Source of the DNA: Pseudoalteromonas ruthenica
GTDB taxonomy: Bacteria > Pseudomonadota > Gammaproteobacteria > Enterobacterales > Alteromonadaceae
Reading direction: 5' to 3'
DNA length: 64,000 bases
Assembly (NCBI RefSeq): GCF_008808095.1
Contig: NZ_CP023396.1
Coordinates: 2,807,501-2,871,500 of the forward strand
Of this stretch, positions 1,952-56,595 are shown in pieces. Below the pieces are notes generated by a model that ran no database searches, was not told the DNA's origin, and saw only the letters and a list, made by a program, of their open reading frames with translations. The translations under genes and the position numbers were made by a program. Position 1 is the stretch's first letter, and each line of letters opens with the position of its first letter.

Positions 1952-1977
1952 AGCCGCTTTTATCTATTGTGGCCAAC

Positions 1978-2052
1978 ACAGATAAATTTAACTATGCCGC
2001 CTGGTAACTGCAGCATAGTTACCGCTGGTACCACATAGTTAAATTCGTCTGT
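1978..2052. repeat. Nested inverted repeats between the two methyltransferase genes
   Basis: The arms ATTTAACTATG (1986-1996) and CATAGTTAAAT (2034-2044) form a perfect 11-bp inverted repeat. It extends after a 3-base internal loop through ACAGA (1978-1982) and TCTGT (2048-2052). Inside sits a second hairpin, GGTAACT (2003-2009) with AGTTACC (2017-2023). Further palindromic pieces follow: GTACT/AGTAC near 2051-2066 and CATAG/CTATG near 2073-2092. There is no trailing T-run, so a plain terminator is unlikely. An RNA element or a priming/protein-binding site is possible. Confidence 0.6.
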
Positions 2053-2099
2053 ACTCGAGTCAGTACTTCATAGCTAGGCTTATCTATGGTCGACCTCTG

Positions 2100-3602: not shown

Positions 3603-3611
3603 AGCCGTGCC

Positions 3612-4166
3612 TCACTTGCCATTTAACTTGCTGTAAATTGCAGACACATAACGTGCTTGGTGCACAGCATCATCCATAGCGTTGTGGCGCGTGCCAACAA
3701 AAGGCATATCATTTTTAGGGTCGAACCCATGCAAGGTGCGGCCAAGGTCAACAAGTGTTCGCACATCACGATCACCAAAATACGGCCAAGGCTGACGCAT
3801 TCGGCAAGCCTTGTATGCATTACCCAAAATAACGTTATCGAAAGTGCAACCATTTCCCCACACCACACGCTCTTTAAAGTTTTCTATTTGACTGATCCAC
3901 TCGTCAAATTCACCTAATGCGTCTTTTAGCGAAACAGCCATATCATCCAGTAGCACTTTACGCGCATCGTCGCTTTGCTCCATCCACCAAATCACGGTTC
4001 CTGCGTCCATTTCACCGTAGTAAGCCGAGCTTTTAAGGTTGACGATCGTGTGGAACTGCGCGCCAATTTCTCCCGTTGTTGGCTCAAAGAAGCACGCGCC
4101 TATAGATATGATCGCCGCTTTTGAACCATTACCCATAGTTTCTAAATCTAACATTACATTATTCAT
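3612..4166 (-). CDS. Phage 3'-5' exonuclease, DEDD superfamily
   Basis: From the ATG at 4166 the protein has 184 residues. ExoI motif: MLDLETMG, with Asp7 and Glu9 binding metal. Later motifs: FDNVILGN (ExoII region) and HNAMDDAVHQA (ExoIII, DEDDh type). This matches phage exonucleases of the RNase T/Rv2179c-like group that degrade DNA or RNA 3' ends. The longer frame starting at 4205 is less likely because TTGGAGAAATT directly precedes the 4166 ATG. It lies 11 bases after the gpA gene and just before the C5 methyltransferase, so it probably acts in phage DNA replication or processing. Confidence 0.85.
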   Translation of the reverse strand: MNNVMLDLETMGNGSKAAIISIGACFFEPTTGEIGAQFHTIVNLKSSAYYGEMDAGTVIWWMEQSDDARKVLLDDMAVSLKDALGEFDEWISQIENFKERVVWGNGCTFDNVILGNAYKACRMRQPWPYFGDRDVRTLVDLGRTLHGFDPKNDMPFVGTRHNAMDDAVHQARYVSAIYSKLNGK

Positions 4167-4177
4167 AATTTCTCCAA

Positions 4178-6664
4178 CTAACCCCATGCTGCGGCTATGT
4201 CCCACCAGTCCTGCTCGGTTTCACCGGCAAGCACCTGGTGTGCATACTCATAGTCGCTACCTGAATAAACGCCGCCCACTGTTGGGGTATTGCGGCCAGC
4301 GTTATTTGCGTGCGCATAAGCTAGGTTCACCAGTTCTCGCGCGCGCTGCCAATGTGTATCTGTTACTTTGATTGGGCGTGCTGGTGTAGCACGCTCTAGG
4401 TTGGTCTGAGCAAAGGATTTCAATTCCTCTGCTTCCATAAAGTAGACGCGGCCATAGTGGACCACACTGCCGCCCTCGCTCAGCGCTTGGCGTTCTTCCT
4501 CTGTCATATCATCAAGCACAGCGATAGGGTCAATCATGCTTTCTTCAGGCAAAGCCTCGCTATCTTGTTGGGCAAAGATGTGTGCGTGGTACTCAATGTC
4601 TAAGCGTTTGCGTTCATTTAATGCACGCTGTTCATCCAATACTTGTAATTGGCCGTCTCGTATTCGGTAAATAAATCCATCAATAGCGATCTGCCTACCC
4701 GCTTTCAGATCCTTTTCATGATCTTTCACCTGATCTTTATCAAAACCAAAGTCGTTAAACGCAAACTGGGTGCTATCCCCCGCCGCTATTGGCGTACAGT
4801 TATTCCCACTAGTCCAAGATAGGTCGGCGGAGCCGACGAGGGCGTTGTCTTTAAGCTGGTTTTTCTCTGCTGTTCCTTTGAGTTGTCTGGTCCATTCCAC
4901 AAGACGCGTCATTAGCACTGACTCGCTCAAGGTATTGAGCACACCTTTAATGCGGCTAACTAGCTCGCCATAGGCGTTACCAAAGGGAGTGTGTTCGTAG
5001 AAAGGTTTAAACCGCGCGTTGCGGCCAATACACATGCCACCTTGCAATTTCACATAGTCTTTCCAGCTGCCCGAGTCGGCCGCCGCACGCACCTCTTCTA
5101 TTTGCGGATCATCAACGGCTTCACGCTTTCGGCGCAGCTCTCGCCATACTGTCACCGACGGTGAGCCCTGAAATTGGAACTGGCGAATATTCCAAGTACT
5201 GGCCCAGGCCTGCACTGGATTAACTTGCTTCTTTATAAGCTCGCCGGTCTCATCATCCTCATGATCAGATATTTGATAACCATCGATGTTTTTGGCGATG
5301 TACTTGGCGATATAGCTAGCGGCACTGCCCTTTTTCTTATCAATTAAGATTGCCTCGAAGCGCGGTGAAAAAGTGCGGTGAAACTTCTGAGGTTCTTTAG
5401 CCTTGATGCCTTGGCTCTTTTTAAATCCCCACGCCTGGCGTTGCTTCTTATAAGCAGTAAAAAGCTCTTTCTTGCGAGCGTAACGCTCTATGAGTTCTTC
5501 ACGGTCTTCAGCAATAAAGTACTTGCGCATAATGGCGTTGACCCACTGCACTTTATCTTTAGGAATAAACAAGAGCATGTGCCAATGCGGGGTTGCATCA
5601 GCATGGGGCTCCGCCACACGCACACCAAAATAGTTGATACCAAGGCGGCCTAGTTTAGCCCTTACTCGAGACCACACTTTATTTAAATAGGCATTGGCAT
5701 CCTTCGGTGTGGTTCCTTGGTACTTAGGTGAATTTGCATGAAAGCGGCTAGGTGTTGTTATGGTCGAAAACACACCTTGATAGCCTATCTCTTCGGCTAG
5801 TTCTTCAGTTTCACGAATACGCAGCATTAGCTCATTGCGGCGGTTGTCTGTGTTAGCCATGCCGCTTTTCACTGCATCCATTAGGTTTATAACACTTCCA
5901 TCGCTGCCTTCTAGTTCCATCATTTCGAGGAACTGTCGGCCACTTTCTTGTGATGCGCTGTACTCCCGCTGCGCCGTTTTACTGGCATACGGGCTGACGC
6001 CACGGCGCTTGCTCTTCTTCGATTTAGGGCAGTGGTAAAGGTCTTTGCCTACCTGACCGGTGGCAATTTCTAGTAGTTCAATATACTGGCGGCGAACGGA
6101 TTTGAGCTTACGCGCCCACCATTTTTCACACTGCATTTTCAGCAAGGCGATTTCGATGTGCTCAATGGGCACCTTATCGCCTTTTTCAGAATAAAAGGGG
6201 GCTTTCACCCCTCGCTCCAAGGAGAATTTGGAAAGCTTTTCATGTATCAGCGTCGCAATCTCTGCATAATCGAGGTGCTGATTTTCGTCGCTGATATCAA
6301 TGGCTATTTGCATGCACTCGCGTGCAGCGTCAGTGCCATATTCTTTGGTTTTTTCAACACTACTCAAAATATGCCAAGGCAAAGGCATACTTTGAGTAAT
6401 CCTGAATAGCACTTCAAAACGAGGCTGCAATCTTGCAATCGTGCGGCTTAACCAGCGATTAGCACGATAAATCGAACCCTGTTTTTTCTGGTTGTAGCGG
6501 TCAATGTAGCGGCGTGCCATGCGCCCTTGTAAAGGCGTGGGGATCACTGCAAGCTTGCGTGCCACATAATTAAAATTATCTACATCATCAATGGCCGCAA
6601 CAATTCCGCGTGCCATTGATGATAGACGCAGCTGCGCCAAATCAACGGGCTGATTCGCTAGCAT
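4178..6664 (-). CDS. P2 gpA-type rolling-circle replication endonuclease
   Basis: An 828-residue protein of the phage gpA (HUH) family. It shows the metal-binding HUH motif as HWH around residue 360 (ATPHWHMLLFI) and the paired catalytic tyrosines in YIAKYIAKN at residues 451 and 455, almost the same positions as Tyr450/454 of P2 gpA. The enzyme nicks one strand of the phage origin, stays bound to the 5' end and starts rolling-circle replication. In P2 the origin lies inside the A gene, so the origin is expected within this ORF, but I could not point to it. The gene follows a small unknown ORF by 3 bases and is the core of the leftward early operon. Confidence 0.93.
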   Translation of the reverse strand: MLANQPVDLAQLRLSSMARGIVAAIDDVDNFNYVARKLAVIPTPLQGRMARRYIDRYNQKKQGSIYRANRWLSRTIARLQPRFEVLFRITQSMPLPWHILSSVEKTKEYGTDAARECMQIAIDISDENQHLDYAEIATLIHEKLSKFSLERGVKAPFYSEKGDKVPIEHIEIALLKMQCEKWWARKLKSVRRQYIELLEIATGQVGKDLYHCPKSKKSKRRGVSPYASKTAQREYSASQESGRQFLEMMELEGSDGSVINLMDAVKSGMANTDNRRNELMLRIRETEELAEEIGYQGVFSTITTPSRFHANSPKYQGTTPKDANAYLNKVWSRVRAKLGRLGINYFGVRVAEPHADATPHWHMLLFIPKDKVQWVNAIMRKYFIAEDREELIERYARKKELFTAYKKQRQAWGFKKSQGIKAKEPQKFHRTFSPRFEAILIDKKKGSAASYIAKYIAKNIDGYQISDHEDDETGELIKKQVNPVQAWASTWNIRQFQFQGSPSVTVWRELRRKREAVDDPQIEEVRAAADSGSWKDYVKLQGGMCIGRNARFKPFYEHTPFGNAYGELVSRIKGVLNTLSESVLMTRLVEWTRQLKGTAEKNQLKDNALVGSADLSWTSGNNCTPIAAGDSTQFAFNDFGFDKDQVKDHEKDLKAGRQIAIDGFIYRIRDGQLQVLDEQRALNERKRLDIEYHAHIFAQQDSEALPEESMIDPIAVLDDMTEEERQALSEGGSVVHYGRVYFMEAEELKSFAQTNLERATPARPIKVTDTHWQRARELVNLAYAHANNAGRNTPTVGGVYSGSDYEYAHQVLAGETEQDWWDIAAAWG

Positions 6665-6667
6665 ACT

Positions 6668-6928
6668 TTACAGTGCGCTGTGTTCGATTAATTCAGGCTC
6701 ATGACCTTTGAGCACCGCATCTAAACGTTGTTGCAGCACATTATGTAGCTCTGCGCCCTCACCTTCTGGTTGCTCTGCAGCCAGTATTTCAGTTATACGC
6801 AGCAAGTTGGTGAACGTATCTTCGCAATAAATCAGCATGCCTGTAGTGGCTCTACTGTTAAAAAAGCGAATGGCCTCATTAGCTGTGTTAATTACTTCGT
6901 TAGCGATTTTTGTTGTAAGCGAGTTCAT
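6668..6928 (-). CDS. Small phage early protein of unknown function
   Basis: An 86-residue, largely helical acidic protein with no motif I recognise. It lies 9 bases after the NPPF methyltransferase gene and 3 bases before the gpA gene, so it is clearly a member of the early operon. The ATG at 6928 is preceded by AAGGATTAATA. In P2-like phages this position often holds small accessory early genes. No function can be assigned. Confidence 0.6.
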   Translation of the reverse strand: MNSLTTKIANEVINTANEAIRFFNSRATTGMLIYCEDTFTNLLRITEILAAEQPEGEGAELHNVLQQRLDAVLKGHEPELIEHSAL

Positions 6929-6937
6929 TATTAATCC

Positions 6938-7534
6938 TTAAATAACGTGAATAGTGGCAGGGTTCGGCGTCATGCCTTTGCTGCTTTTTTTAAATACAAA
7001 GTGGGCGTATTCGATAGAGTCGGTTTTCCCTTTTTTATCGGGAAAGAATGAGGGGCGCTTGCTATGCACATACACACTTTGCAGTGGTGCTTTATCCCAA
7101 AATGATTTGCGGTCTTTTGTGCCCAACCAGTTAAGGCGTTGAAGCATGACCACATAGCCATCCGGGCAAACGTGTTCTAATGCTTTGTTCACAAAGTCGA
7201 TGGAGATATTAAAAGGCGGATTAGTTATCACCACGCCGTAATCACCTACCCCGCGTGACTCAAGAAAATTCAAGCCCGTAAACGGTGTTCTAGCGTCGAT
7301 GCGTATATCGGCTGTGGTTAAGTTAATACCGTTAAAACGCTGTGCGAGCACTGCCGGGTAACTCGGCTCATACAATGAGCAACCGCCACAAGAGGGATCG
7401 AGTACATCGTCCGTCATAAGACGGTTTTCTAAATCTGTGCCTTTGATAGCATCGAGGAACTGCTCAATTAGCCAATGTGGTGTCACGTAATAATCATCTT
7501 TATTGCGCACGGCGCCGCGATTCGTTGAACTCAT
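6938..7534 (-). CDS. Phage SAM-dependent DNA adenine methyltransferase-like protein
   Basis: A 198-residue protein with a SAM-binding motif I, VLDPSCGG (residues 44-51), and the catalytic NPPF at residues 105-108, the gamma-type N6-adenine methyltransferase signature. It has no evident separate target-recognition domain, so it is a compact enzyme. Substrate is most likely DNA adenine, but NPPF also occurs in N6-modifying RNA and protein glutamine methyltransferases. It is the third methyltransferase of this prophage and the only one upstream of the replication gene, which suggests early methylation of incoming or replicating phage DNA. Start ATG at 7534 follows AGGAGCCCTC. Confidence 0.82.
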   Translation of the reverse strand: MSSTNRGAVRNKDDYYVTPHWLIEQFLDAIKGTDLENRLMTDDVLDPSCGGCSLYEPSYPAVLAQRFNGINLTTADIRIDARTPFTGLNFLESRGVGDYGVVITNPPFNISIDFVNKALEHVCPDGYVVMLQRLNWLGTKDRKSFWDKAPLQSVYVHSKRPSFFPDKKGKTDSIEYAHFVFKKSSKGMTPNPATIHVI

Positions 7535-7542
7535 GAGGGCTC

Positions 7543-7941
7543 CTAGTGCTGCTTTGGCAGTTGGTTGGCTGGGTCAAAGTGGCCGCTGGTCACAGTCCGC
7601 TTTGCTCCCTGGTAGAACTTGGCCGGTGCCATGGCATTGGCTGAAGTGAACGCTTTTACAATTTCATCGAGCTCTAATACTGCTTTGCGCAATGCATCAC
7701 GCTGCTCGTAACTCAGCTGGCTAAATGGCTTATCAATATCGGTGCGCTTTAAGCCAGCCGCAAAGCATAAAATGGTACGCTCACGTTCGCTCAGTACTTG
7801 GGTATACACATGCTTCGGCGTGTGGCGCTCATCACCTAACATGGCGCGGATCTCGCGCAATCCTTGTGGTGTATGGCTCCCCTCTATCGCCTCAAGGCTC
7901 GGCACCGGGTTTTGTGTTATCTGCTTAGCGGTTGCGGTCAT
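7543..7941 (-). CDS. Phage early protein of unknown function
   Basis: A 132-residue protein with a predicted helical middle part (residues 45-95: SERERTILCFAAGL, then SQLSYEQRDALRKAVLELDEIV). No catalytic or metal motif is seen. Its start overlaps the 3' end of the zinc-ribbon gene by 17 bases, and it precedes the NPPF methyltransferase by 8 bases, so it is translated as part of the early operon. Function unknown. Confidence 0.6.
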   Translation of the reverse strand: MTATAKQITQNPVPSLEAIEGSHTPQGLREIRAMLGDERHTPKHVYTQVLSERERTILCFAAGLKRTDIDKPFSQLSYEQRDALRKAVLELDEIVKAFTSANAMAPAKFYQGAKRTVTSGHFDPANQLPKQH

Positions 7942-8119
7942 GAAGTTGCTCCCATTCAGTCATACATCGTTTGTCACACCAGCGGCGCCCTTGCTCGGCT
8001 GGCTCTTTGCAATTCCAGCATCGACCCGTGCTTTGCTTGGGCGGCTCTGGCTTGCGGTAAGTTAAAGCGCGAGATAACTCGCGCTCTTGTTCGGTCGTTG
8101 CCACATCGGCTAAATCCAT
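7925..8119 (-). CDS. Small zinc-ribbon phage protein
   Basis: A 64-residue protein. The C-terminal half carries CWNC, then C in RRWCDKRC, giving a four-cysteine ribbon (CxxC-x13-CxxxC) likely to bind one zinc. This resembles the small C4 zinc-finger proteins common in P2-like early operons (TraR/DksA-related or DUF2116-like). The N-terminal acidic helix MDLADVATTEQEREL would fit a TraR-like protein, but the assignment is not firm. The preceding bases AAGGAAGCCAAG give a plausible ribosome site. It overlaps the next gene by 17 bases. Confidence 0.65.
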   Translation of the reverse strand: MDLADVATTEQERELSRALTYRKPEPPKQSTGRCWNCKEPAEQGRRWCDKRCMTEWEQLHDRNR

Positions 8120-8136
8120 CTTGGCTTCCTTATTGT

Positions 8137-8421
8137 TTAATCATTAACGTGCTGCCACTCGTCACGAGCTTGGTCGTAACGCGACTGCAAATAGGCACCT
8201 AAGTCAGTCACGTTCACCATTGTTGGTGCACGTTCTGAATCTCGTAATTTAAAAGTGGGAAATGGCAACGCAGCGGCTTTCGCTTTTTGCTCTGCTGTTT
8301 TAGGCTCAATACCCAAATACTCTTTGCAAATTTCTCGCAGCGGTACCGTGGGGCTGTTAAAACAGGCCAGCAAAGCAAAAGTCATATTCATATCGCCTGT
8401 CCGGGGCTGGTGCTTACCCAT
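8137..8421 (-). CDS. PrtN-like (pyocin activator family) regulator
   Basis: From the ATG at 8421 the protein has 94 residues. It matches the general form of PrtN-family proteins: MNMTFALLACFNSPTVPLREICKEYLG near the N-terminus, then LPFPTFKLRDSERAPTMVNVTDLGAYL. In Pseudomonas, PrtN activates pyocin genes after SOS-driven loss of the PrtR repressor. Here it sits directly after a Cro-like gene and opposite an S24 repressor, so an SOS-to-PrtN relay is plausible but inferred. The start at 8421 is chosen over 8466 because AAAAGGAGAAAAGC directly precedes it; it then overlaps the Cro-like stop by 8 bases, suggesting translational coupling. Confidence 0.72.
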   Translation of the reverse strand: MGKHQPRTGDMNMTFALLACFNSPTVPLREICKEYLGIEPKTAEQKAKAAALPFPTFKLRDSERAPTMVNVTDLGAYLQSRYDQARDEWQHVND

Positions 8422-8641
8422 GCTTTTCTCCTTTTCTGCCTTTTTCGTGGTCGGCAAGTAACTCATCTACTGTCACGCTTCCATGCGTAAGCTCGGAAAT
8501 GCGTTTTATATACTTAGCTGGAGCCTGTTGGTGACGATGAACCCAATTCCATACTTGAGTTTGTGTTACACCCCCGCCTAAAGCTTTAGCAGTTGCTGTT
8601 TGCCCTAGTAGAGCATCAACGGCTTTCTCAATGGCTGACAT
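8414..8641 (-). CDS. Cro/YdaS-like DNA-binding protein
   Basis: A 75-residue protein with a YdaS-type helix-turn-helix: TATAKALGGGVTQTQVWNWVHRH at residues 15-37. Such proteins occupy the cro position of many prophages and repress the lysogenic promoter. It is divergent from the S24 repressor across a 205-base operator region, which is the classic switch layout. Two ATGs are adjacent; the second (8641) has better spacing from GGAGGA. It is the first gene of the leftward early operon. Confidence 0.8.
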   Translation of the reverse strand: MSAIEKAVDALLGQTATAKALGGGVTQTQVWNWVHRHQQAPAKYIKRISELTHGSVTVDELLADHEKGRKGEKHG

Positions 8642-8644
8642 CAT

Positions 8645-8846
8645 TCCTCCAAGTCAAAACCACTTTTTTATATAATAAGATCGCTTTAAGTTGTTTGTAA
8701 ACACTTTTTGTTGTTTTGATTTCAAGAAAGACCAAAAATATATATTTGACGATAACCACTTAAAGTGGTGATAATCGTCCAACAACACAAATGTTGTTTA
8801 TAAAAAACCACTTTCCCTGTTTTCAGGAACAACTTTTGGAGATGAT
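8645..8846. promoter_or_regulatory. Genetic-switch operator region with two palindromes
   Basis: The divergent gap between the Cro-like and repressor genes holds a perfect 15-bp palindrome, ACCACTT-A-AAGTGGT at 8755-8769, and an 18-bp palindrome, AACAACA-CAAA-TGTTGTT at 8781-8798. Copies of the half-site ACCACTT recur near 8659-8665 and 8808-8814, and TTGTTT/AACAAC half-sites recur near 8690-8720. Two motif types suggest separate sites for the repressor and the Cro-like protein. Promoters for both directions must also lie here. The pairing of motif with protein is not determined. Confidence 0.65.
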
Positions 8847-9461
8847 ATGGATATTGCACATAGGGTCAGAGAGCTAAGGAAAGGCTTAAGTTTGACTCAG
8901 TACCAGTTAGCCGAGCTGGTTGGTGTAGCACAAAACTCAATTCAAAAAATAGAAGTCGGGCACACTAAAAACCCTCGGAATATAGAAGCTTTAGCAAGAG
9001 CTCTTCAGACTACTCCCGAATACCTCCGTTTTGGCGTGGGCACTAGTGATAGTTTTACTGCTGGTCCTACAGTAAAGAAGCAGCTACCACTCATCAGTTG
9101 GGTTCAAGCTGGCGCTTGGTCAGATATTCAAGAGGTGAATCCGCTAGAAGCTGAGCATTTTATGTGTCCGGTGAACTGCTCTGAGAAGTCATTTGTATTG
9201 AAGGTGCAAGGAATCAGTATGGAACCGAAGTTCTTGGATGGTGATTTAATATTTGTTGATCCTGAAGCGAGACCAGAACATGGCTCCTATGTTGTCGCTC
9301 GGCTTGATGACGAGAACCAAGCCACATTCAAACAGTTAATTATTGAGGGCGGCCAAAAGTTCTTAAAAGCACTCAACCCCAACTGGCCTGATCCACTCAT
9401 GCCTATCAATGGCAATTGCACCATCGTTGGCAAAGTTGTTTTTACAGGTAAGTCTTTATAA
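8847..9461 (+). CDS. CI/LexA-like prophage repressor (HTH + S24 autoprotease)
   Basis: A 204-residue repressor. Residues 5-60 form an HTH of the XRE type (LTQYQLAELVGVAQNSIQKIE). The C-terminal S24 peptidase part has the self-cleavage site Ala88-Gly89 in SWVQAGAW, catalytic Ser124 in GISMEP and catalytic Lys162 in ATFKQL. All residues needed for RecA-stimulated self-cleavage are present, so this prophage should be SOS-inducible, unlike P2 itself, whose C repressor is not cleaved. ATG at 8847 follows TTTTGGAGATGAT. It is followed by a strong hairpin terminator. Confidence 0.93.
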   Translation: MDIAHRVRELRKGLSLTQYQLAELVGVAQNSIQKIEVGHTKNPRNIEALARALQTTPEYLRFGVGTSDSFTAGPTVKKQLPLISWVQAGAWSDIQEVNPLEAEHFMCPVNCSEKSFVLKVQGISMEPKFLDGDLIFVDPEARPEHGSYVVARLDDENQATFKQLIIEGGQKFLKALNPNWPDPLMPINGNCTIVGKVVFTGKSL

Positions 9462-18727: not shown

Positions 18728-21283
18728 TCAGTTCACACAGAGCTGAGAGTGGGAGCTGACCATCGCTCTAAACTTTTCAAAATCGCAAAGTGGTTTAAAC
18801 CAAGGCTGTAAAAACCAGTTTTGGTGGTAACCACTTTTTAAAGCCTCTTCCACATAGTAAAGGCTGGAGTTAAAGTCTCCGCCCAGAGCATGCACTAATG
18901 CCGCTGTATAACTTAACTCTGACTTATCCTCTGCCAACTTGAAACTATGCTTCAGTGATTTAATAGCTTGCTCGTTGTCACCCAATTGAGCATAGGCCTG
19001 CGCATTTTCAGACCACGCCAAGGCTGATTCACGCCCGTTATTTAGCTGTAATAAGCGCTGATACAGCTCTTTTGACTCCACAAGCTTACCGTTGAGCATA
19101 TTTATGTCTGCCATATTGAGCATCATCCCGGTGTTTTTTGGGGAGCTCAAAAGCGCTTGCTTGGCAAACTTTTCTGCCATAGGGTAGTTCTGCACCATCA
19201 TGTAGGCGATAGAGAGGTTTGATAAATCAATGCTGTCACTATTCTCATTGAGTGTTTTGCTGTAGCTTTCTATCGCAGAGATGAAGTCACCTTCAATTAA
19301 AGCAATATCAGCTAGGTACTGGTGAGTTCTTCTATCACTAGGGACTTTTTCAACTAAATCAGCGAGCAAGTTTTTCGCTGACTGAAAATCACCCAGCCAA
19401 TACAAAACGAGCGCAAGCTTTCTTTGTAACCGCAAATTGGGTCTCAAGCTCAACGCTACTTCTAACTTATCTCTGGCCTGTTTATCTTCACCCTCAGCAA
19501 GCAGAATTGAAGCCTCCAAATTCAAAATAGCAGCTTGGTCATGACTCACTTTGGTTAACATACCCAAAGCATGCTTGGCCTCTTCTATTTGCCCCAGCTC
19601 TATATTGAGCAGCACTAGGCTTTTGTAGTAGCTGGACAACTTTTTAAATTCACCTGGGGCATTATGGATTGCTGAAATTGCCTGCTTAAGATAAGTTTTT
19701 TCATGGGTTGAGTGATACAGCTGCAGCGCAATTTCACGTAGAAGGTTATAACCCTCGACACTGGTTGCACTCTCTTTGACCGTCGCCAGACTTTTCTCAA
19801 ACATCTCCGGCGTTGCTACGTTGTCGACATAAAACAACGTATACATCTCAAATAATGGGCTGTTACTTTTCATTGTCGATAGCGAGCGATACTGTTCACT
19901 ATCAATGCCCGGGGAAATAAGGCGTGCAGTATTGTATTTCGCCACGTCATGTAAATTAGTTGTGCCTGCAATATCTGTCTGCCACTGCATACTCTCCTGC
20001 ACTTGCCAGTTGGGAGCACGTAGTGTACTTATTTCAACGCTACAGTGGCGTTGCTGACAATCCAACGAGCTGCTAATCAGGGTATCGGCGCCGGTGTAGT
20101 CGGCCAGCATCTGAAAGTAGCTTTTAGGGTCTCTAAATTGATCACTATCTCGGCCTAGCGCCAACATATTCATTTCTGCACGGCTAACTATTTGCTGGTC
20201 TTGCTGGAGCAACTGCTGCCACATAGCACTTTGTACCGAGCCTTTCAAAGCGCTTTCATAATGCTTAAATTCATCAGGTAGGTTATAGATCTGAGTGGGT
20301 AGAATCGCGACCACAGGCTGGTGTAACAGATAAGGCCGTAGCAAGTAGCCTCCCACCAACACTGCCGCACAGACAAAGGCCATCACAAGGTAACGCCAGC
20401 GCAACTTCTTTGCTCTTAATGGTGCGCTTTTCTGCGTGGTATTTGATGGTGTAACCGGTTCTGTTTGCTGCTCTAAAATAGCGGCTTGAACTCGTTGTTG
20501 CAGTAACTGCTCAAGCTGTTTGCTAAAAGGGCCTCGGCGCAGATTTAAGCGCGCCGCAGGTTTTACGCTAAGCGCTTGGCCTAATAGTGCTTGCAACTGC
20601 TGCGGTAATTGCGTGGTGCTGAGATCTAAGTGGTGTCCTTGCAATATTGCCGCGCTGATATCTTGGCCACCTTGTCCAGCAAAGGGGTGCTCGCCTGTCA
20701 GTAATTCAATTGCAACAACGGCAAACGAGAACCAATCGCTGTGGTGGCTGAGTGCTTGCCCTTGCAACTGCTCAGGCGACATATAGCCCTTAGTGCCTGC
20801 GCTTTGACTAACATGGCTGTTACCGCCCACGAAGCCAGCGATACCAAAGTCAGCCACTTTGACTTGCCCAGCTTCACTGATCAAGATATTGCTCGGTTTC
20901 AAGTCACGGTGAATAATGCTATTGCGATGCGCATGCTCTAAACCCTTGGCAATATCCACCAGCATAGCCAGCTTTTGTTCAAGCGTTAACACATGCTGCT
21001 TCTGGTATTGCAGCAGGTTTTTACCCCGACAAAACTCCATCACTAAGTACTGCTGGCCATCGCTTTGGCCACAGTCAAATACTTGAATAATATTGGGGTG
21101 ATTTAAGCGTGCCAGAAAGCGCGCTTCACTAAGGGCGTCTTCGTCTAACTCACTGTCACCGCTAGTATTAAGCACCTTAAGTGCCACGGTACGTTCTAGT
21201 TTAGTATCAAAAGCTTCGTAGATGGTGCCCATGCCGCCCTGGTACACCACTCTATTCAATTCATAATGAGCAAGCGTGCGCAT
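18728..21283 (-). CDS. Membrane Ser/Thr protein kinase with periplasmic TPR domain
   Basis: An 851-residue protein. Residues 7-265 are an intact Hanks-type kinase: glycine loop VYQGGMGT, Lys36 in VALKVL, catalytic HRDLKPSN (Asp127), DFG at 145-147 and the activation segment GTKGYMSPEQL. One membrane helix follows at about 298-317 (YLVMAFVCAAVLVGGYLL). The extracytoplasmic part has a region with CQQRHCSVEIS, then TPR-like helical repeats to the C-terminus (for example AAILNLEASILLAEGEDKQA, AYMMVQNYPMAEKFAKQAL). It should sense a periplasmic signal and phosphorylate cytoplasmic targets. The FHA protein gene lies 9 bases upstream in the same operon and is the likely partner. Confidence 0.9.
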   Translation of the reverse strand: MRTLAHYELNRVVYQGGMGTIYEAFDTKLERTVALKVLNTSGDSELDEDALSEARFLARLNHPNIIQVFDCGQSDGQQYLVMEFCRGKNLLQYQKQHVLTLEQKLAMLVDIAKGLEHAHRNSIIHRDLKPSNILISEAGQVKVADFGIAGFVGGNSHVSQSAGTKGYMSPEQLQGQALSHHSDWFSFAVVAIELLTGEHPFAGQGGQDISAAILQGHHLDLSTTQLPQQLQALLGQALSVKPAARLNLRRGPFSKQLEQLLQQRVQAAILEQQTEPVTPSNTTQKSAPLRAKKLRWRYLVMAFVCAAVLVGGYLLRPYLLHQPVVAILPTQIYNLPDEFKHYESALKGSVQSAMWQQLLQQDQQIVSRAEMNMLALGRDSDQFRDPKSYFQMLADYTGADTLISSSLDCQQRHCSVEISTLRAPNWQVQESMQWQTDIAGTTNLHDVAKYNTARLISPGIDSEQYRSLSTMKSNSPLFEMYTLFYVDNVATPEMFEKSLATVKESATSVEGYNLLREIALQLYHSTHEKTYLKQAISAIHNAPGEFKKLSSYYKSLVLLNIELGQIEEAKHALGMLTKVSHDQAAILNLEASILLAEGEDKQARDKLEVALSLRPNLRLQRKLALVLYWLGDFQSAKNLLADLVEKVPSDRRTHQYLADIALIEGDFISAIESYSKTLNENSDSIDLSNLSIAYMMVQNYPMAEKFAKQALLSSPKNTGMMLNMADINMLNGKLVESKELYQRLLQLNNGRESALAWSENAQAYAQLGDNEQAIKSLKHSFKLAEDKSELSYTAALVHALGGDFNSSLYYVEEALKSGYHQNWFLQPWFKPLCDFEKFRAMVSSHSQLCVN

Positions 21284-21292
21284 AGAGTTTAC

Positions 21293-22276
21293 CTAGTTGG
21301 AGGATGCGCGTTTAACCGACTCTTCGAGTTGGTGGCCTTTATAGATTTCGAAATTACTGGCGCTAAAACGCACCTTACGTAGTTTACGCTCGATGATACT
21401 ATCGGCATCCTCTATATGCGCAAGGGCATCGCTAAATTGCTTACGGGCGCGGTGAATTTGAATATTTAGATAGCGAGAATCGATACCCAAATCGCGGGCT
21501 ATTACTTCAGTTTCGACCCAACCTTGACTGAGCTCATGTACGCCGTTGGCGGCATCTTGAGCCTTGTAACGGGCCAAATTTAACGTTAGATAATGATGGC
21601 AACGCTCGTGCAAATCAATTTCCTCACCTGGGCCTCTGACCGTAAGCTCTGCAGACTCTTCATCTAGGGTAAGGTGAAAAATAAAGTTTAAGTCGGCTAA
21701 CTGGGTATTGCTCACATCGCGCAGCGCTGTGGCTTCTTCCAAATGGCTTAAATGCAATTGATAGCTTCGCTGGCTATCATTGAACTGATCGTTCTCTATT
21801 AAAATAGTGTGATCAAGCATCGGCCCATCCAGGTGCTCAAAGCACCAAAAACCACTCTCACGTTGGTTAAATACGGCTATTTCTGGGGACTCTTCAGGGA
21901 TAAGGTTGTAATTTGCTAAGCAAATAAACTCCGAAGTAGGCTTGGCGTATTCATCAAGGACGATCAATAAGTCTTGCGGCTTATCTAAATTCGCAACTTT
22001 GAATTGCTTGCCATCATTTCCTGGCAGAGCAATCACATCATGAAGCTTAAGCGTTTGGCTGTGATCTTTATCTAAGCGTTTGCTATTAAGCCAAGTGCCG
22101 TTACGGCTGAGGTCACGAACCTGCCATTCATTCCCCTGCCATTCAATGATGGTATGAATTTTCGACACGCTAGGATCGCTGATCAGCGTGTCTACACTGT
22201 ACTGAAAACGCCCAAAGCTATGGTGGGCGTGCAAATAGATCACATTGTCCGTATCCGCTTCGATAAGGTAAGCCAT
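21293..22276 (-). CDS. FHA-domain protein with C-terminal winged-helix-like region
   Basis: A 327-residue soluble protein. The N-terminal FHA domain (about 20-95) keeps the phosphothreonine-binding residues: G22-R23, S36-x-S-K-I-H41 and N59-G-T. The C-terminal part (about 225-310) has HYLTLNLARYKAQ, EVIARDLGIDSRYLNIQIHRARKQF, which resembles a winged-helix DNA- or protein-binding domain. FHA domains bind phosphothreonine peptides, so this protein is a likely reader or substrate of the kinase encoded 9 bases downstream. It may be a phospho-controlled transcription factor; the targets are unknown. Confidence 0.82.
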   Translation of the reverse strand: MAYLIEADTDNVIYLHAHHSFGRFQYSVDTLISDPSVSKIHTIIEWQGNEWQVRDLSRNGTWLNSKRLDKDHSQTLKLHDVIALPGNDGKQFKVANLDKPQDLLIVLDEYAKPTSEFICLANYNLIPEESPEIAVFNQRESGFWCFEHLDGPMLDHTILIENDQFNDSQRSYQLHLSHLEEATALRDVSNTQLADLNFIFHLTLDEESAELTVRGPGEEIDLHERCHHYLTLNLARYKAQDAANGVHELSQGWVETEVIARDLGIDSRYLNIQIHRARKQFSDALAHIEDADSIIERKLRKVRFSASNFEIYKGHQLEESVKRASSN

Positions 22277-28160: not shown

Positions 28161-29906
28161 CTAAGGTGATAGCTCCTCCGGGGTTTTATACTGCCAGCCA
28201 AGGAATATCACTCGGCGCTGACCACCTAAATTTCCACCTTGTGACTTTTTCAGCGCGGTGTCGTAATGAATATCACCATCACCACATACACTGACCCTTT
28301 TCCCCCGAATGGCCCCGTACAGCTCACCACTGGCACCAAACTTTACATTGCTATAGGGTGCATAAATAGTTCCGTACATTTGTCCCGTGCCCGATAGCTC
28401 AACACCAAAGTCGCCCCCGCATTGGGTTGCTGCGGAGTTATCTTGATACCCAGAATACAGACTGAAAGGCGGTAGCTTGTTGCTATTAAGTGTTTTCTTG
28501 AGCACGTTAACGGGTTGCTGAATTTGACTTTTACCTTGAACAAATAACGTCAAACTTGCACCTTCATTGATATTTAGTGCGCTATTACCATTGGTTGTAA
28601 GCTTGAAATCGCCATTAATGTAAAAAACGACATCTCCCTTTGCAATCGTCAATTCAGCTCCATTAATAATCAGATCATCTAGAAAGTATACCGATCCGTA
28701 TTGCCGCCCCAATATAGAAGTTGAGGTTGGCATGTAGATAGAACCAAAACTATCACGGCCTTGTTCGTCGTCGAACTGTGCATGATTACCCCATCCTGTC
28801 ACATTGAGTCCCTGACGAGGCAACTTTTGCTGCAGCTTTGCTAACTCAGAGGGCAACGAGTAAGGATCACAGTTGGTGTCTGGGTCTTTAGGGTCGTGGT
28901 TAGGATCCTCGCTGTTACTGGCAGGAACAGCGGGAACGGTAACAGTTTGGTGATAAGGCGCACCTTTATAATTAGTGCCGGCGATAGAGTCTTTATTATT
29001 TTCTTCCGTGGTATTGTTACCACCATACAGAACGGCTAACCCATTATTGTTGATATTTCTAACAGCAAATGAGGGAGTAAAATGAACATCTTGCTCGGCT
29101 CTTACCACCCCTAATATATGGCGCCCCTGATAAGTAACACTGCCTTTTGCCAAAATATCACCGCCAATTCGCGTTTTCACAGGAAAACCAGGCGGTATCG
29201 TATAATCTCCTGAGCTACCGCCACTGACATCAATATCGCCATTGGCATGAACAGTCCCGGATATAAATCCTGCTCCGGTAATGTTGATGTTTCCTGTTGC
29301 ACGGACATCACCCCACGTGGAAGAACCACCACTGACAACGATATCCGCATTAGGTGAAATCGTTTTCACATGCGCCTGGGTTGAGGCGTTGTCGCGATCG
29401 TACTGGCCATCAAGCTGCTGCGAATCATAGCTATCTATGTTCCCACCCGCTGAATTTAAGACTCCATCACAGCCAACTATGGCGGTGTTAAAAGGCGCAT
29501 AGCCACCGTTACTGGTAACAGCGTATCTGGCCACTAAATTAGCCTCTGCTTCACCAGCATAACGCTCTCCTAACGCAGCGATTTCCAGCTCACCCGCCCC
29601 ATTTTTATTTAGCTGTGCGCGATACTTTAGGTCTCCCTTATGAATGGAACCACTGTGTGCTTGCTCAGTTTGCGCTACGAGCTCGTCAATATCAGCATCA
29701 GGGTTTGCATGCAGTTGCTGCTGTACTTTCTCAGCCTGAGCAAAAACGGCTCGTTCAGACATCATCCGCGCATTAACTTTCTTCTGAAAGTTGCCACTGA
29801 GGCGCTCTTGCACGATGCTGTCTTTTAGTGAAGTAAATACCACCACGCTAGCGACCACGGTTAATAACATCACACTGACTAGAGTGAAGCCCTGCTGTTG
29901 CTTCAT
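28161..29906 (-). CDS. pilX: PilX-like minor pilin with large C-terminal domain
   Basis: A 581-residue protein. The N-terminus MKQQQGFTLVSVMLLTVVASVVVF is a type IV prepilin leader with hydrophobic helix (cleavage before Phe), in the PilX position of a minor-pilin operon. The rest (about 125-575) is unlike usual PilX (~200 residues): Gly/Asn-rich beta-helix-like repeats (GDVRATGNINITGAGFI, GTVHANGDIDVSGG, GGDILAKGSV) and a C-terminal part (YGSVYFLDDLIINGAELTIAKG, MYGTIYAPYSNVKF) like the DUF7305 domain of secreted/pilus proteins. It probably sits at the pilus tip. It overlaps pilW by four bases. No pilY1 follows. Confidence 0.82.
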   Translation of the reverse strand: MKQQQGFTLVSVMLLTVVASVVVFTSLKDSIVQERLSGNFQKKVNARMMSERAVFAQAEKVQQQLHANPDADIDELVAQTEQAHSGSIHKGDLKYRAQLNKNGAGELEIAALGERYAGEAEANLVARYAVTSNGGYAPFNTAIVGCDGVLNSAGGNIDSYDSQQLDGQYDRDNASTQAHVKTISPNADIVVSGGSSTWGDVRATGNINITGAGFISGTVHANGDIDVSGGSSGDYTIPPGFPVKTRIGGDILAKGSVTYQGRHILGVVRAEQDVHFTPSFAVRNINNNGLAVLYGGNNTTEENNKDSIAGTNYKGAPYHQTVTVPAVPASNSEDPNHDPKDPDTNCDPYSLPSELAKLQQKLPRQGLNVTGWGNHAQFDDEQGRDSFGSIYMPTSTSILGRQYGSVYFLDDLIINGAELTIAKGDVVFYINGDFKLTTNGNSALNINEGASLTLFVQGKSQIQQPVNVLKKTLNSNKLPPFSLYSGYQDNSAATQCGGDFGVELSGTGQMYGTIYAPYSNVKFGASGELYGAIRGKRVSVCGDGDIHYDTALKKSQGGNLGGQRRVIFLGWQYKTPEELSP

Positions 29907-33898: not shown

Positions 33899-34636
33899 TT
33901 ATGCGCTTCGCTGTCTGAGTACTTCAAACAAGCTAATGCCAGTCGCGACCGAGACATTTAGGCTAGATACCGTGCCCACCATAGGGATTTTCACCAGCAC
34001 ATCACAGTGCTCACGCGTTAAACGGCGCATACCATCGCCCTCAGCCCCCATAACCATGGCGATAGGGCCGGTGAGGTTGGCATCAAACAATGTGGTATCG
34101 GTCTCTCCTGCCGTGCCGACAACCCACACCCCAGCATCTTTAATTTCACGCAAGGTCCGTGCGAGGTTAGTCACTTGCACTAACGGCACCACTTCAGCAG
34201 CACCACAAGCGACCTTTCGTACCGTCGCATTTAACTTCGCCGACTTATCCTTAGGCACGATAACCGCGTGCACACCGGCAGCGTCCGCACTACGCAGGCA
34301 GGCCCCCAAATTGTGAGGATCAGTGATGCCATCTAAGACCAACAAGAAGGGCGTTTGCTCTCGGCTAATAATGGCGTCTAAGTCACGCTCGTTATATTGT
34401 TTACCTTGGCGAACTCGAGCAATAATGCCTTGATGCTGTTCGCCTCGGGCTTTGTCATCCAGCGCTTTACGCTGCATAAACTGCACCGAAATACCGAATT
34501 GCCGAGCCTGATTGATCAACGCATTTAGACGCTTATCATCGCGCCCTTTTAAAGCATACAGTTCAATGAAGCGCTCGGGCTCGCGGCTGAGGATGGCTTC
34601 GACACTATGAAAACCAAAGATTAATTCGTTACTCAC
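33899..34636 (-). CDS. rlmB: 23S rRNA 2'-O-methyltransferase RlmB
   Basis: A 245-residue SpoU-family (SPOUT) enzyme: N-terminal substrate domain [18 protein letters not shown], then SPOUT motifs [51 protein letters not shown] and [27 protein letters not shown]. It methylates G2251 of 23S rRNA. It starts 9 bases after rnr, the conserved rnr-rlmB pair. Confidence 0.96.
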
Positions 34637-43067: not shown

Positions 43068-43328
43068 TTAATAATTCCCTTCTTCTGACTCCGGTGCGTC
43101 GAGTCCTTGCGCACCATGAAAATTCACTGCTCGGGCTGGCACAACAGTGGAAATCGCGTGCTTATACACCATTTGATTTACAGTGTTCTCTAACAAAATG
43201 ACAAATTGGTCGAAAGACTGAATCTTGCCTTGCAGTTTTATGCCGTTGACTAAAAAAATTGAAACAGGAATACGCTCACGACGTAGCGCATTCAAAAATG
43301 GGTCTTGTAACGATTGGCCTTTTGCCAT
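43068..43328 (-). CDS. hfq: RNA chaperone Hfq
   Basis: An 86-residue Sm-like protein: [34 protein letters not shown] and [28 protein letters not shown], all conserved RNA-contact residues present. The short acidic tail is usual. It pairs small RNAs with mRNAs. Lies between miaA and hflX. Confidence 0.98.
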
Positions 43329-43406: not shown

Positions 43407-44324
43407 CTAGCTTAGCGAACTTACTATACGTTGCAAGTTTTCTTGGTCCCCGCTTTCAAGCCACGTTAGGTTCTGCCAACCTCGAAGCCAGGTTAACTGC
43501 CTTTTCGCCAACTGACGCGTAGCAGCTACTCCACGAAAAACCATTTCATCATAATCAATTTCACCCGCGATGTAATCCCACATTTGTCTATACCCTACGC
43601 AACGAATAGAAGGCAGATCCGGGTGCAAATCCTTCCTGTTATATAGGGACAAAACTTCGTTTTCAAACCCCTGCTCGAGCATTATTTGGAATCTTTTCTC
43701 TATACGCTGGTGCAAAACGCGACGATCGCTTGGCGCAATAGCAAATTGATGAACTGGAAACCCTAAGGATTGTGCCTTCGTTTGCTGCAGTTCAGTCATA
43801 CTCTTGCCACTGATACGGTATACCTCTAAGGCGCGATTAATTCGCTGTGAATCATTGGCGTTAATTTTCGCTGCCGCCTGCGGGTCCACCTGCTGTAACT
43901 GCTGATGTAACGCCGGCCATCCATGCTCTTTTGCTTCGGCTTCGAGGGCAGCTCGAATGTCTGCATCAGCTTCAGGTAGTGGCGACAGCCCTTTAAGTAA
44001 GCCTTTGAAATACATCATAGTACCACCGACTAACAAGGGTACTTTGCCTTGATTATGTAGCTGTTCGATGTGCGCTAGAGCGTCGCGGCGAAAGTCAGCC
44101 ATGGAGTAGCTCTGTGCCGGGTCAACAATGTCAATAAGTCGATGGGGTGCCAACGCACGCTCTTGTGCATCAGGTTTGGCGGTGCCGATGTCCATTCCTT
44201 TATACACCAAGGCGGAATCGACGCTGATCACTTCGGTATCGAAGTGTTGGCATAAATCAATGGCTAAGGCGGTTTTTCCTGAGGCGGTAGGCCCCATTAA
44301 ACAGATAACGGGCAATGAACTCAC
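43407..44324 (-). CDS. miaA: tRNA dimethylallyltransferase MiaA
   Basis: A 305-residue enzyme: P-loop [52 protein letters not shown] and KRQLTWLR. It adds the isopentenyl group to A37 of tRNAs reading U-initial codons. The start is GTG at 44324, five bases after the end of the mutL reading frame. Confidence 0.96.
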
Positions 44325-44329
44325 AAGGC

Positions 44330-44647
44330 TTAAACACTTAATTGACTGACGTATTGGGATAGCTCTATTTTAACGGCTTTTTGCTGTAATTGCTGAACAA
44401 TTTCTGGAGTATTCTGTAACTGTGTCTGCCAAGTTGCAAAGTCATTACCATTGAAATAATTGCTCGGCGTAGATGCCGCAAGCCACGTGAGAAAATCCTG
44501 CTGTGAACTCTCAGCCGTCAACTGCGCGCTGAGTATCTGCTCAATCACTCGCTTGGCATCGCTGGCATATAAGCTGCTGGGTAGGCGCTTTACCATGGCA
44601 AATTGTTTTTCAAGCTGGATATCGAACCCTAACACCGAGAGCCAGGA
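44330..44647 (-). pseudogene. mutL: C-terminal part of mutL, separated by an in-frame stop
   Basis: This frame continues exactly the frame of mutL after the TAA at 44648-44650: SWLSVLGFDIQLEKQFAMVKRLPSS and on to SQYVSQLSV. It matches in kind the end of the MutL dimerisation domain (LGIDF-like strand, charged RLP segment, tryptophan-containing helices). It has no start of its own except a GTG at 44635 without a ribosome site. With the upstream part the total, about 605 residues, equals the usual MutL length. It would be translated only by stop-codon readthrough. Confidence 0.82.
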
Positions 44648-46144
44648 TTACAGTCCTTGCAAACACGCCAACTCCTTATCTTGCAAGGCCACACGCACAG
44701 GTAACAACAATGCGCGACTACTTAGCTGCGCTTCAGCTTCGAGTTGCTGCTGCCAAGCCAGCGGTAACACCTGACGCCAGTGGCTAAGGTGTAACTGCCC
44801 TTGCACACTCACTGCACAGTGGCCATCCGTTAAGGGCAGGAGTGACACACTCTCTGCGGCTACATGCTCCGCAGGGGCTGACTCAGCTACATGATTAAAC
44901 TCATGAGCCTGTACTTCACTGATCCCTTGATAAAACTGATTCGCTTGAGCAATACGTTGGGCATCAACAGGGTGCGCTCGCGTGCTCGCTGGCGCTGAAT
45001 CTCGATAGCTTGAACCAGGGCGACTGGCCGTTCCCATAAACTGCCCCGATTGCTGATTATCAGGACTAGGACGCAATTGCGATTTGGGGTAAGCAGGACT
45101 GTCACTGTGAGCAGCGGTTGCTGGTGGTATCGAGGGTTGCGGTATTAGCGTTTGCTCACTGGCCACCAGCTGTTGCACCGCCTGTAAAATAAAGTCATGG
45201 ACTAATCGCGCCTGATGAAAACGCACCTCATGCTTGGCCGGATGCACGTTAACATCAACCTGGCGGGGGTCGACTTCTAGGTAAAGTACAAATGCCGGCA
45301 CTTGCGCTTGTTGGGTATGTTCTTCAAAGGCTTGACGAATAGCGTGTAAAATCAATTTGTCGCGCATCATGCGGCCATTAACATAGGTATACTGCGGCTC
45401 TGTTTGCGTGTGCTGAGGCATAATCCAGCCATGCAAATAGAGCCCTTGGTCACCACTTTGTAAATGCATTCCCTGGCTGGCAAAGCCTTTGCCTGCGACC
45501 TGAGCAATACGCTTTACTGCACCCGCGTCGTCCGCCGACACTGGTCGATATTGGCGCACTACTTTAGCGTTGTGGGTTAAGGTAATGGCAATATCGAAGC
45601 GGCTTAAGGCAATGCGCTTTAGCAGCTCATCAATATGGTTGAACTCAGTTTTTTCGGTTCGTAAGAATTTGCGCCGTGCGGGGGTATTAAAAAATAAGTC
45701 TTTAACTTCAATGGTGGTGCCATCAGGATGCGCTGTTGGCTGCACCTGCACGGCCATATCGCGTCCCTCTGCAAAGGCTTGCCAAGCTTCATTTTGCTGG
45801 GCAGGCTTGGACTTTAACGTTAGTCGCGATACCGAGCTTATGGAGGCGAGTGCCTCGCCACGAAAGCCTAAGGAGTTAATACATTCTAAATCATCCAGTG
45901 TTTTTAATTTACTGGTAGCATGGCGTGAAAGCGCGAGGGTGAGCTCATCTTTGACTATACCCGAACCATTGTCGGTAATGCGGATCAGTTTATGGCCGCC
46001 GCGTTCAATATCAACGCGAATACGTGTCGCTCCCGCATCTAAGCTGTTTTCAACCAACTCTTTCACGACAGAAGCGGGACGCTCAACTACTTCACCAGCA
46101 GCGATTTGGTTAGCTAATCGCGCCGGTAATATCGCTATACTCAT
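44648..46144 (-). CDS. mutL: DNA mismatch repair protein MutL, truncated by in-frame TAA
   Basis: 498 codons: the N-terminal GHKL ATPase is intact ([59 protein letters not shown]), as are the S5-like domain and the Ser/Pro/Gln-rich linker. The C-terminal dimerisation domain starts ([22 protein letters not shown]) but is cut at LACLQGL by TAA (44648-44650). E. coli MutL has 615 residues; the missing part is present in the same frame just downstream. Without the C-terminal domain MutL cannot dimerise stably, so mismatch repair would be impaired. The stop could also be a sequencing error. Confidence 0.9.
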
Positions 46145-46153
46145 ATACGCTCG

Positions 46154-47494
46154 TTAGGTATTAGGAATGGTTAACACTTGGCCAATGTAGACTGTGTCTG
46201 TTTTTAGCTTATTGACGCGTTTAATAGCCCCGACAGAGACGCCATAACGACTCGCCACGACACTTAACGACTCACCGCGACGAATCTTATGTCGTGTTGG
46301 GTTTTGTGCCTTAATCGTTGCAAATAGCGAGTCATCAGGGGGGTTATTACGGTAATAACCACGAATTGATCTGAACACCGCCTTAGCTAGTTTTTCCTGG
46401 TGCGCCGCCGTTTTCAGCAACCGCTCTTCTTGAGGGTTGGATATAAACCCCGTTTCCACCAAGATAGAGGGAATATCTGGCGATTTCAGTACTGCTAAAC
46501 TCGCCGCTTGCGGATAGCGTTTATGCATTTTCGCCACTTTACGTAATTCTTTGATGGCCTCTTCAGCCACTTTAAAGCCGGTTTTCATGGAGTGATCCAT
46601 GGACATGTCGAGTAGCGTCTGCGCTAAATACTTTTCGCTGGCCGTGTCGCGAATGGCATCCGCAGCCCCCCCAAGTAATTCAGAGTGTTTTTCCCTATCC
46701 TCAATCCATTTACCTATTTCTGAATTAGCCCGACGCAGAGACAACACCCACACCGACGCTCCTCGCGGCTGTGGGCTGGTAAAGGCATCAGCGTGAATTG
46801 ACACTAAAAAGTCAGCTTTGCGTTTGCGCGCTTTGGTGCTGCGGTTATTGAGTTTGACGTAATAATCTCCGCTGCGCACCATATAGGCTTGCATGCCCCG
46901 TTCGGCATTAATCAATCGCTCTAAGCGTTTAGCTACTTGCAAAGTGATGTCTTTCTCATAGGTGCCGCTTGGGCCAATAGAGCCGGGGTCTTCACCGCCG
47001 TGACCCGCATCGATCGCGATAACAATGTCACGGTTGGTTTCTAATACTCTATTTTTTGGTATGTTTTGGGCTTGTTGACCGTCACTTTTATCGTAAAGGT
47101 CAATGACTAATCGGTCTTTATACGGCCCGGTAGGAGCCAAAGAAAAAATGACCGGCTTAGTGGCTTTGAGTAACTCAAACACCACTCGAGTAGAACCCGA
47201 CTTTTTCGGCGTGCTAGGACGGATTTTATCAACAATTTGGTGCTTCTTTTCAATTGCTGGGTAGTCTTTACGGTGCGCAGTATTATTGATATCAACGACG
47301 AGGCGTAATGGATTCTTCAGCATGAAATAGCTGAAATCTGGCTTTTCTTGCATATCAAACACCACCCGCGTGCTATCGGGTGATGGCCATACACGCACGT
47401 TTTCTATGGTGTTTTGAGCTGCCGCCACTGTTGCCCATACGAGCAACATGGCGCACAAGGTTGCCTTGCTTGCGGTTATGATTATTTTAAGCAT
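46154..47494 (-). CDS. amiB: N-acetylmuramoyl-L-alanine amidase (AmiB/AmiC type)
   Basis: A 446-residue secreted protein: signal peptide (ATLCAMLLVWATVAAAQ), AMIN domain (about 28-120; TRVVFDMQEKPDFSYFMLKNPLRLVVDI), Amidase_3 catalytic domain with zinc ligands in IAIDAGHGGEDPG, the late Glu in ILVETGFISNPQEERLL, and a C-terminal LysM (HKIRRGESLSVVASRYGVSVGAIKRVN). It splits septal peptidoglycan at division. The tsaE-amiB-mutL order matches E. coli. Confidence 0.95.
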   Translation of the reverse strand: MLKIIITASKATLCAMLLVWATVAAAQNTIENVRVWPSPDSTRVVFDMQEKPDFSYFMLKNPLRLVVDINNTAHRKDYPAIEKKHQIVDKIRPSTPKKSGSTRVVFELLKATKPVIFSLAPTGPYKDRLVIDLYDKSDGQQAQNIPKNRVLETNRDIVIAIDAGHGGEDPGSIGPSGTYEKDITLQVAKRLERLINAERGMQAYMVRSGDYYVKLNNRSTKARKRKADFLVSIHADAFTSPQPRGASVWVLSLRRANSEIGKWIEDREKHSELLGGAADAIRDTASEKYLAQTLLDMSMDHSMKTGFKVAEEAIKELRKVAKMHKRYPQAASLAVLKSPDIPSILVETGFISNPQEERLLKTAAHQEKLAKAVFRSIRGYYRNNPPDDSLFATIKAQNPTRHKIRRGESLSVVASRYGVSVGAIKRVNKLKTDTVYIGQVLTIPNT

Positions 47495-56231: not shown

Positions 56232-56307
56232 TGGAGCGGCACACGAGGTTCGAACTCGTGACCTCAACCTTGGCAAGGTTGCGCTCTACCAGCTGAGCTA
56301 GTGCCGC
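56232..56307 (-). tRNA. tRNA-Gly (GCC), copy 3 in reading order
   Basis: A 76-base gene on the minus strand: acceptor GCGGCAC/GTGCCGC, discriminator T, encoded CCA, anticodon stem CAACC/GGTTG enclosing TTGCCAA (anticodon GCC), and a GTTCGAA T-loop. Identical to the other two copies. The triplet corresponds in position to glyVXY of E. coli, next to orn. Confidence 0.97.
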
Positions 56308-56375
56308 TTCATTGTTTGCTCGGGGTTGCACAGCTGAGCTTGGGCTGCAAACTGTTAGTAACAACAGTAAAAGTT

Positions 56376-56451
56376 TGGAGCGGCACACGAGGTTCGAACT
56401 CGTGACCTCAACCTTGGCAAGGTTGCGCTCTACCAGCTGAGCTAGTGCCGC
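56376..56451 (-). tRNA. tRNA-Gly (GCC), copy 2 in reading order
   Basis: Identical in sequence to the copy at 56232-56307, with encoded CCA and anticodon GCC. It lies 68 bases from each neighbour; the three are probably one transcript cut by RNases. Confidence 0.97.
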
Positions 56452-56519
56452 TTCATTGTTTGCTCTGGATTGTGCAGCTGAGCTTGGGCTGCAAACTGTT
56501 AGCAACAACAGTAAAAGTT

Positions 56520-56595
56520 TGGAGCGGCACACGAGGTTCGAACTCGTGACCTCAACCTTGGCAAGGTTGCGCTCTACCAGCTGAGCTAGTGCCGC
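56520..56595 (-). tRNA. tRNA-Gly (GCC), copy 1 in reading order
   Basis: Identical to the other two copies; first to be transcribed. Its encoded CCA, anticodon GCC and T-loop are intact. Confidence 0.97.

Follow-up and report, generated by a model that had tools for sequence, protein, structure and literature searches.

A premature in-frame stop codon in mutL and a probable second lesion in mutS in a Pseudoalteromonas genome

How should a mutL gene that is interrupted by an in-frame stop codon be understood: namely, as the mark of a natural mutator, as a gene that is read through, or as a sequencing error? These three options were left side by side in a preliminary description of the locus, which lies in a stretch of 64,000 nucleotides (the window, to which the coordinates below refer) from a Pseudoalteromonas genome of 4,117,705 bases in two contigs. 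The full frame of mutL runs on the reverse strand (46144-44330) and comprises 604 codon positions, with an internal TAA as codon 499 (44648..44650, reverse strand); as present in the ORF listing, from its ATG to this early TAA, the gene encodes 498 amino acids (44648..46144, reverse strand). The ATPase/transducer region (residues 1-330; 45155..46144, reverse strand) is intact, as judged from the Pfam matches to HATPase_c_3, HATPase_c and DNA_mis_repair and from the alignment to E. coli MutL structures, and the segment directly before the early stop (44651..44839, reverse strand) was covered by the alignment of homologues and by profile matches to the E. coli structures 7p8v and 1x9z. On the same strand, mutL is followed by miaA with a GTG start (43407..44324; TIGR00174, 371 bits) and then by hfq, the next gene of the superoperon (43068..43328; NCBIfam search). 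The gene 5' of mutL (46154..47494, reverse strand) has AmiB as its best NCBIfam match, with 331 bits, under the model cut-off of 532. By eye, we also take hflX to belong to the mutL superoperon. The same gene order is found at the mutL-miaA-hfq locus of E. coli (PMC12249760).

The first point to settle is whether the frame beyond the stop belongs to mutL. The ORF listing and the sequence both bear out the preliminary description, in which the TAA at 44648-44650 was followed by an open frame; reading continues in frame over 105 sense codons (44647-44333) up to the original TAA (44332-44330). All of the 105 residues encoded in this remainder (44330..44647, reverse strand, including the original TAA) are the same as those of P0001, a MutL taken to be conspecific. 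The sum of the parts was also claimed to equal the normal length of MutL, and so it does (498 + 1 + 105 = 604), P0001 being likewise 604 amino acids long. When the read-through frame was searched with X at the stop, Pfam MutL_C (PF08676) matched residues 467-557 with 37.2 bits (cut-off 25), but it matched neither the piece of 498 amino acids alone nor that of 105 amino acids alone. Furthermore, the read-through frame aligns over its length, tail included, with 17 homologues. Because the tail aligns and MutL_C is found only with read-through, the frame after the stop is real MutL and not a chance open frame, in agreement with the MutL-like character ascribed to it before. NCBIfam MutL models match the product of 498 amino acids, the top scorer (NF000948) reaching 671 bits against a cut-off of 701. 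In the alignment to 7p8v, the stop codon corresponds to Gln504 of E. coli MutL, and it falls within the C-terminal domain of the solved structure 1x9z; these alignments predict that 44330..44647 specifies the latter half of the domain for dimerisation at the C-terminus, outside the translated MutL. The whole-genome record, which is the same record as the window and gives no independent check of the base at the stop, contains a single mutL with one internal TAA (G000:C1:2851833-2853644).

We then consider the age of this allele. In the MutL protein search (the best 120 listed of 8000 scored), P0001 showed 99% identity over the first 498 residues and has Gln at position 499. Besides position 499, the two proteins differ at four positions, all within residues 1-498, and agree over their whole final stretch of 105 residues; at one of the four, position 414, the state in P0001 is the derived one as judged by T1lg48, T1lg75 and T1lg88. 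No source is given for P0001, which represents a cluster of sequences; its contig has 477 kb, so that it is not the window's own record, and from its near identity we take it for the protein of a conspecific strain. A sister MutL ending naturally at this codon, which the preliminary description had named as evidence against its reading, was not seen, since P0001, the sole conspecific full-length protein among the matches listed, continues through the site. MutL is 603-640 amino acids long in all of the 62 Pseudoalteromonas mutL loci examined (L032-L089, L094, L100, L108 and L111 of 80 loci, assigned to Pseudoalteromonas by title), and the early stop is absent from all 62; at the aligned position, Gln is the commonest residue (36 loci), ahead of Glu (12), Ser (6), Asn (4), Leu (3) and His (1). 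Also, open mutL frames of at least 558 amino acids were found in 40 of 40 relatives, as compared with 501 amino acids in the genome under study. From these comparisons, the stop allele looks recent and private. One comparison could hint at an older change. Between this genome and T1lg48, T1lg75 and T1lg88, pN/pS is 0.35-0.42 in the tail as against 0.32-0.37 ahead of the stop; when these relatives are compared with one another, it is the tail that shows the stronger constraint (0.14-0.16 vs 0.18-0.21), the synonymous sites being mostly saturated and the signal thus weak. These values could be a weak hint that the tail came under weaker constraint in this lineage before its split from P0001. A near-identical MutL on another contig, P0007, is 347 amino acids long and seems by eye to be frameshifted twice; it may represent poor assembly or another damaged copy.

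The other genes of mismatch repair (MMR) were examined in the same genome. The MutS_III profile has one match, a MutS of 859 amino acids encoded outside the window (G000:C1:258845-261421, locus L112), in which codon 665 specifies Asp. Compared with the representative P0121 (859 amino acids), two residues differ, namely Gln412 and Asp665; P0121 and P0001 represent clusters of 20 and 23 sequences, respectively, and possibly come from different strains. At position 665, Gly is present in all 120 homologues listed, as well as in each of the 29 MutS loci that were retained from 59 further genomes across the phylum; in the joint alignment, with P0128 left out, Gly is found in 148 of 148 other sequences and Asp in the MutS under study. 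Among the 120 MutS sequences of the protein search (this one included, P0128 excluded), only two have a private change at an otherwise invariant column: Asp665 here, and a mild D301E in P0195. By a looser yardstick, which uses the protein-search set alone, 22 of 121 MutS sequences have at least one such change; this count includes P0128, a MutS labelled as K. pneumoniae with 64 private positions, which was excluded from the stricter ones. Since private changes are common under the looser yardstick, the weight of Asp665 lies in the deep conservation of the site. By counting along the alignment, Asp665 was matched to Gly658 of the E. coli protein; it lies in Pfam domain V, 44 residues past the start of the GPNMGGKST stretch, and the literature consulted on this glycine contained nothing on that residue. 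The conservation suggests that Asp665 is a probable second lesion in the mismatch-repair pathway, located in the ATPase domain, and the substitution might also be tolerated. MutH and UvrD are both full length; MutH has no private changes against 29 relatives, and UvrD has two mild ones, M47T and I87V, against 28 relatives (the split uvrD of G008 excluded). In the relative G008, the parts of uvrD for residues 1-237 and for residues 238-715 stand about 1.6 kb apart (G008:C1:3439372-3443086), as if separated by an insertion, which would make this uvrD another damaged mismatch-repair gene in the genus. A further candidate, A113E in PurA, was dropped: although none of 22 relatives shares it, it is not private when 120 homologues are compared, and no near-identical conspecific protein was listed.

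Given these results, we consider it probable that the sequenced clone is a natural mutator that has recently lost mutL function and carries a probable second lesion in the same pathway. Of the options in the preliminary description, a natural mutator is the one best supported, by the intact P0001 and by the position of the stop inside MutL_C. Translation would stop at codon 499 inside the C-terminal domain, such that the ATPase domain is kept and the second half of the dimerising domain is lost. Dimerisation of MutL would then be abolished, and the mismatch signal from MutS would not be relayed to MutH and UvrD; methyl-directed repair would be halted, and the clone would mutate faster. MutS Asp665 would damage another step of the same pathway. 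In this scheme, we infer the loss of dimerisation, the loss of repair, the harm from Asp665 and the order of the changes. Both the mutL stop and MutS Asp665 fit G:C to A:T transitions, and the two changes may be linked, one raising the odds of the other. An MMR-deficient mutator is expected to have an inactivating lesion that its relatives lack; mutL is here cut in MutL_C and Asp665 is a probable further lesion, both being presumably inactivating, and the mutL lesion is absent from P0001, from 62 of 62 loci and from 40 of 40 relatives.

MMR mutators arising through mutL nonsense mutations, and those with lesions in both mutS and mutL, are already known kinds. Among isolates of P. aeruginosa, the MMR-negative isolate 22a has a nonsense mutation in mutL at nucleotide 1474 (codon 492), and the hypermutator isolate 2a has L625Q within the last ten residues of MutL, the deletion of which abolishes homodimerisation (PMC2937033). 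In these mutL alleles from cystic fibrosis, as in the present one, a single-base change harms the C-terminal domain of MutL in a natural isolate; the P. aeruginosa isolates, however, came from chronic lung infection and were tested for hypermutability and by complementation, whereas the clone described here is marine and known from its genome alone (PMC2937033). Changes in both genes were likewise described in a hypermutable lineage of P. aeruginosa, in which MutL was causal and transitions made up about 80% of the mutations; both of its changes are missense, whereas MutL is truncated here, and among the transitions of two MMR-deficient lineages of that species, the G:C to A:T type was the most frequent (62-65%) (PMC4199492). 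The mutators of the long-term evolution experiment with E. coli (e.g., mutS Q606* and changes in a mutL repeat) also lost MMR via nonsense mutations or indels in mutS or mutL, but these were laboratory populations, and the changes in the six-base repeat of mutL are revertible by slippage (PMC7523724). In the same genus as the present clone, deletion of mutS from P. lipolytica raised mutation rates about 100-fold; that loss of MMR was engineered, while point changes are found here (PMC10634453). Vibrio splendidus 12B01 is likewise a marine gammaproteobacterium with MMR loss, in which mutS was damaged via excision of a mobile element (PMC5296598).

Does the genome bear the load expected of a mutator? 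For a test of gene disruption, 400 kb of the genome under study was searched for those ORFs of T1lg75 that are at least 120 amino acids long and have a reciprocal full-length match in T1lg88; T1lg75 and T1lg88 are draft genomes, and the ORF sets are mechanical and thus include antisense ORFs. Of 221 reference ORFs, 130 were intact, 83 were absent or too dissimilar (probably lying for the most part outside the 400-kb stretch), and 8 received a disruption flag; a ninth entry, also antisense, matched in part and is already included in the absent class. Of these 8 flags, that of mutL is real. Five others concern ORFs that overlap longer ones in antisense, one arises from an extension upstream of a sigma-factor gene that is itself intact, and one reflects a diverged N-terminus without a stop. 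Reverse controls gave, as raw counts, 7 flags among 131 for T1lg75 and 8 rows among 188 (7 flags and one partial match) for T1lg88. In the 400 kb, therefore, no build-up of pseudogenes was seen on the side of this genome, and mutL is the sole verified disruption, which argues against both poor assembly and long decay. Homopolymer runs of 8 bases are fewer in this genome, at 2.5 per 100 kb, than in two relatives (5.4 and 4.7). The load of private substitutions was counted in 10 of 14 genes; the four set aside, queG, nnr, rnr and the gene at 33899, each had fewer than 15 sequences. With its terminal branch of 0.071, this genome has 9 private changes, as compared with 1-4 in four relatives with branches of 0.061-0.078; per unit branch, its value of 127 is within the range of its clade (T1lg75, 90; T1lg88, 124; T1lg48, 195). 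The lack of a clear genome-wide excess in these indirect tests is compatible both with an allele of very recent origin and with the absence of any mutator history.

The clean neighbourhood also bears on a sequencing or assembly error, in which one miscalled base would have produced the TAA and perhaps another Asp665, for example through long-read errors near methylated bases. Systematic C-to-T and A-to-G errors of nanopore sequencing are linked to methylation (PMC11170131); a CCTGG lies one base past the mutL stop codon, and a gene for a C5-cytosine methylase is present in the window. However, no other frameshift or early stop was verified on this genome's side of the 400-kb test, the mutL and mutS sites have no evident common motif (no CCWGG occurs within 20 bases of the mutS site), and both changes strike a single repair pathway, which random error would not favour. 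This option of the preliminary description is hence weakened by the clean 400 kb but keeps some weight, and we regard such an error as unlikely. Far less probable is the production of full-length MutL, and hence normal repair, by read-through or a suppressor tRNA. Relatives have different residues in this column (Q, E, S, N, L and H), and many inserted residues could be tolerable, but UAA followed by U is a strong terminator, the stop occurs in none of the 62 relatives examined, and the anticodons UUA, CUA and UCA are absent from all 91 tRNA genes found. All 91 matches were assigned an anticodon; 150 of 227 candidates were scored, by which a weak match could escape. With no stop-reading tRNA among those found, the read-through option of the preliminary description is unlikely. 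It is equally improbable that the truncated MutL, perhaps together with a C-terminal piece of 101 amino acids separately started at the in-frame GTG 12 bases past the stop (44635), retains enough function through its complete N-terminal ATPase domain, given that the stop splits the C-terminal domain, that by eye this GTG has no ribosome-binding site at a useful distance, and that the MMR-deficient isolates listed for P. aeruginosa include one with a similar truncation and another with no more than a missense change within the final ten residues (PMC2937033).

The early stop may also affect the genes downstream. Between the original stop of mutL and the GTG of miaA there are five bases, as against six in the three closest relatives, and inspection by eye revealed no clear ribosome-binding site. 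Since translation of mutL would end early, 323 bases ahead of miaA would go untranslated; miaA may then lose translational coupling, and its expression, perhaps with that of hfq, may drop. Such uncoupling is considered here as a possibility, because miaA of E. coli also has promoters of its own (PMC12249760).

Several other features were noticed in the window. Positions 1250-9461 encode a replication gene A protein (828 amino acids, Phage_GPA), an S24-type repressor, a C5-cytosine methylase, a short D12-type adenine methylase and an Rv2179c-like exoribonuclease, and are likely to be a prophage or its remnant. A Ser/Thr protein kinase (851 amino acids) adjoins an FHA-domain protein at 18728-22276, and the kinase part scores with anti-phage kinase models, which match many kinases. 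A protein of 581 amino acids (28161-29906) has DUF7305, of unknown function and located near the C-terminus, as its sole domain match, and three consecutive tRNA-Gly (gcc) genes are found at 56232-56595 with a spacing of 144 bases.

A literature search, which did not cover every paper in full, found no report of this mutL allele. Provided that the strain is kept in a collection, this genome can serve as a test case, given its truncated mutL and its suspect mutS. As a genome used for comparison, furthermore, it may itself come from a mutator clone, which would bias the estimates of divergence and selection drawn from it. A bolder reading, which we hold to be quite doubtful, is that a free-living marine lineage has lost both arms of the pathway, with MutL truncated and the ATPase of MutS damaged, and persists or adapts without methyl-directed repair. 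If this double loss is true, the natural, stepwise decay of a mismatch-repair pathway would be directly observable in Pseudoalteromonas.
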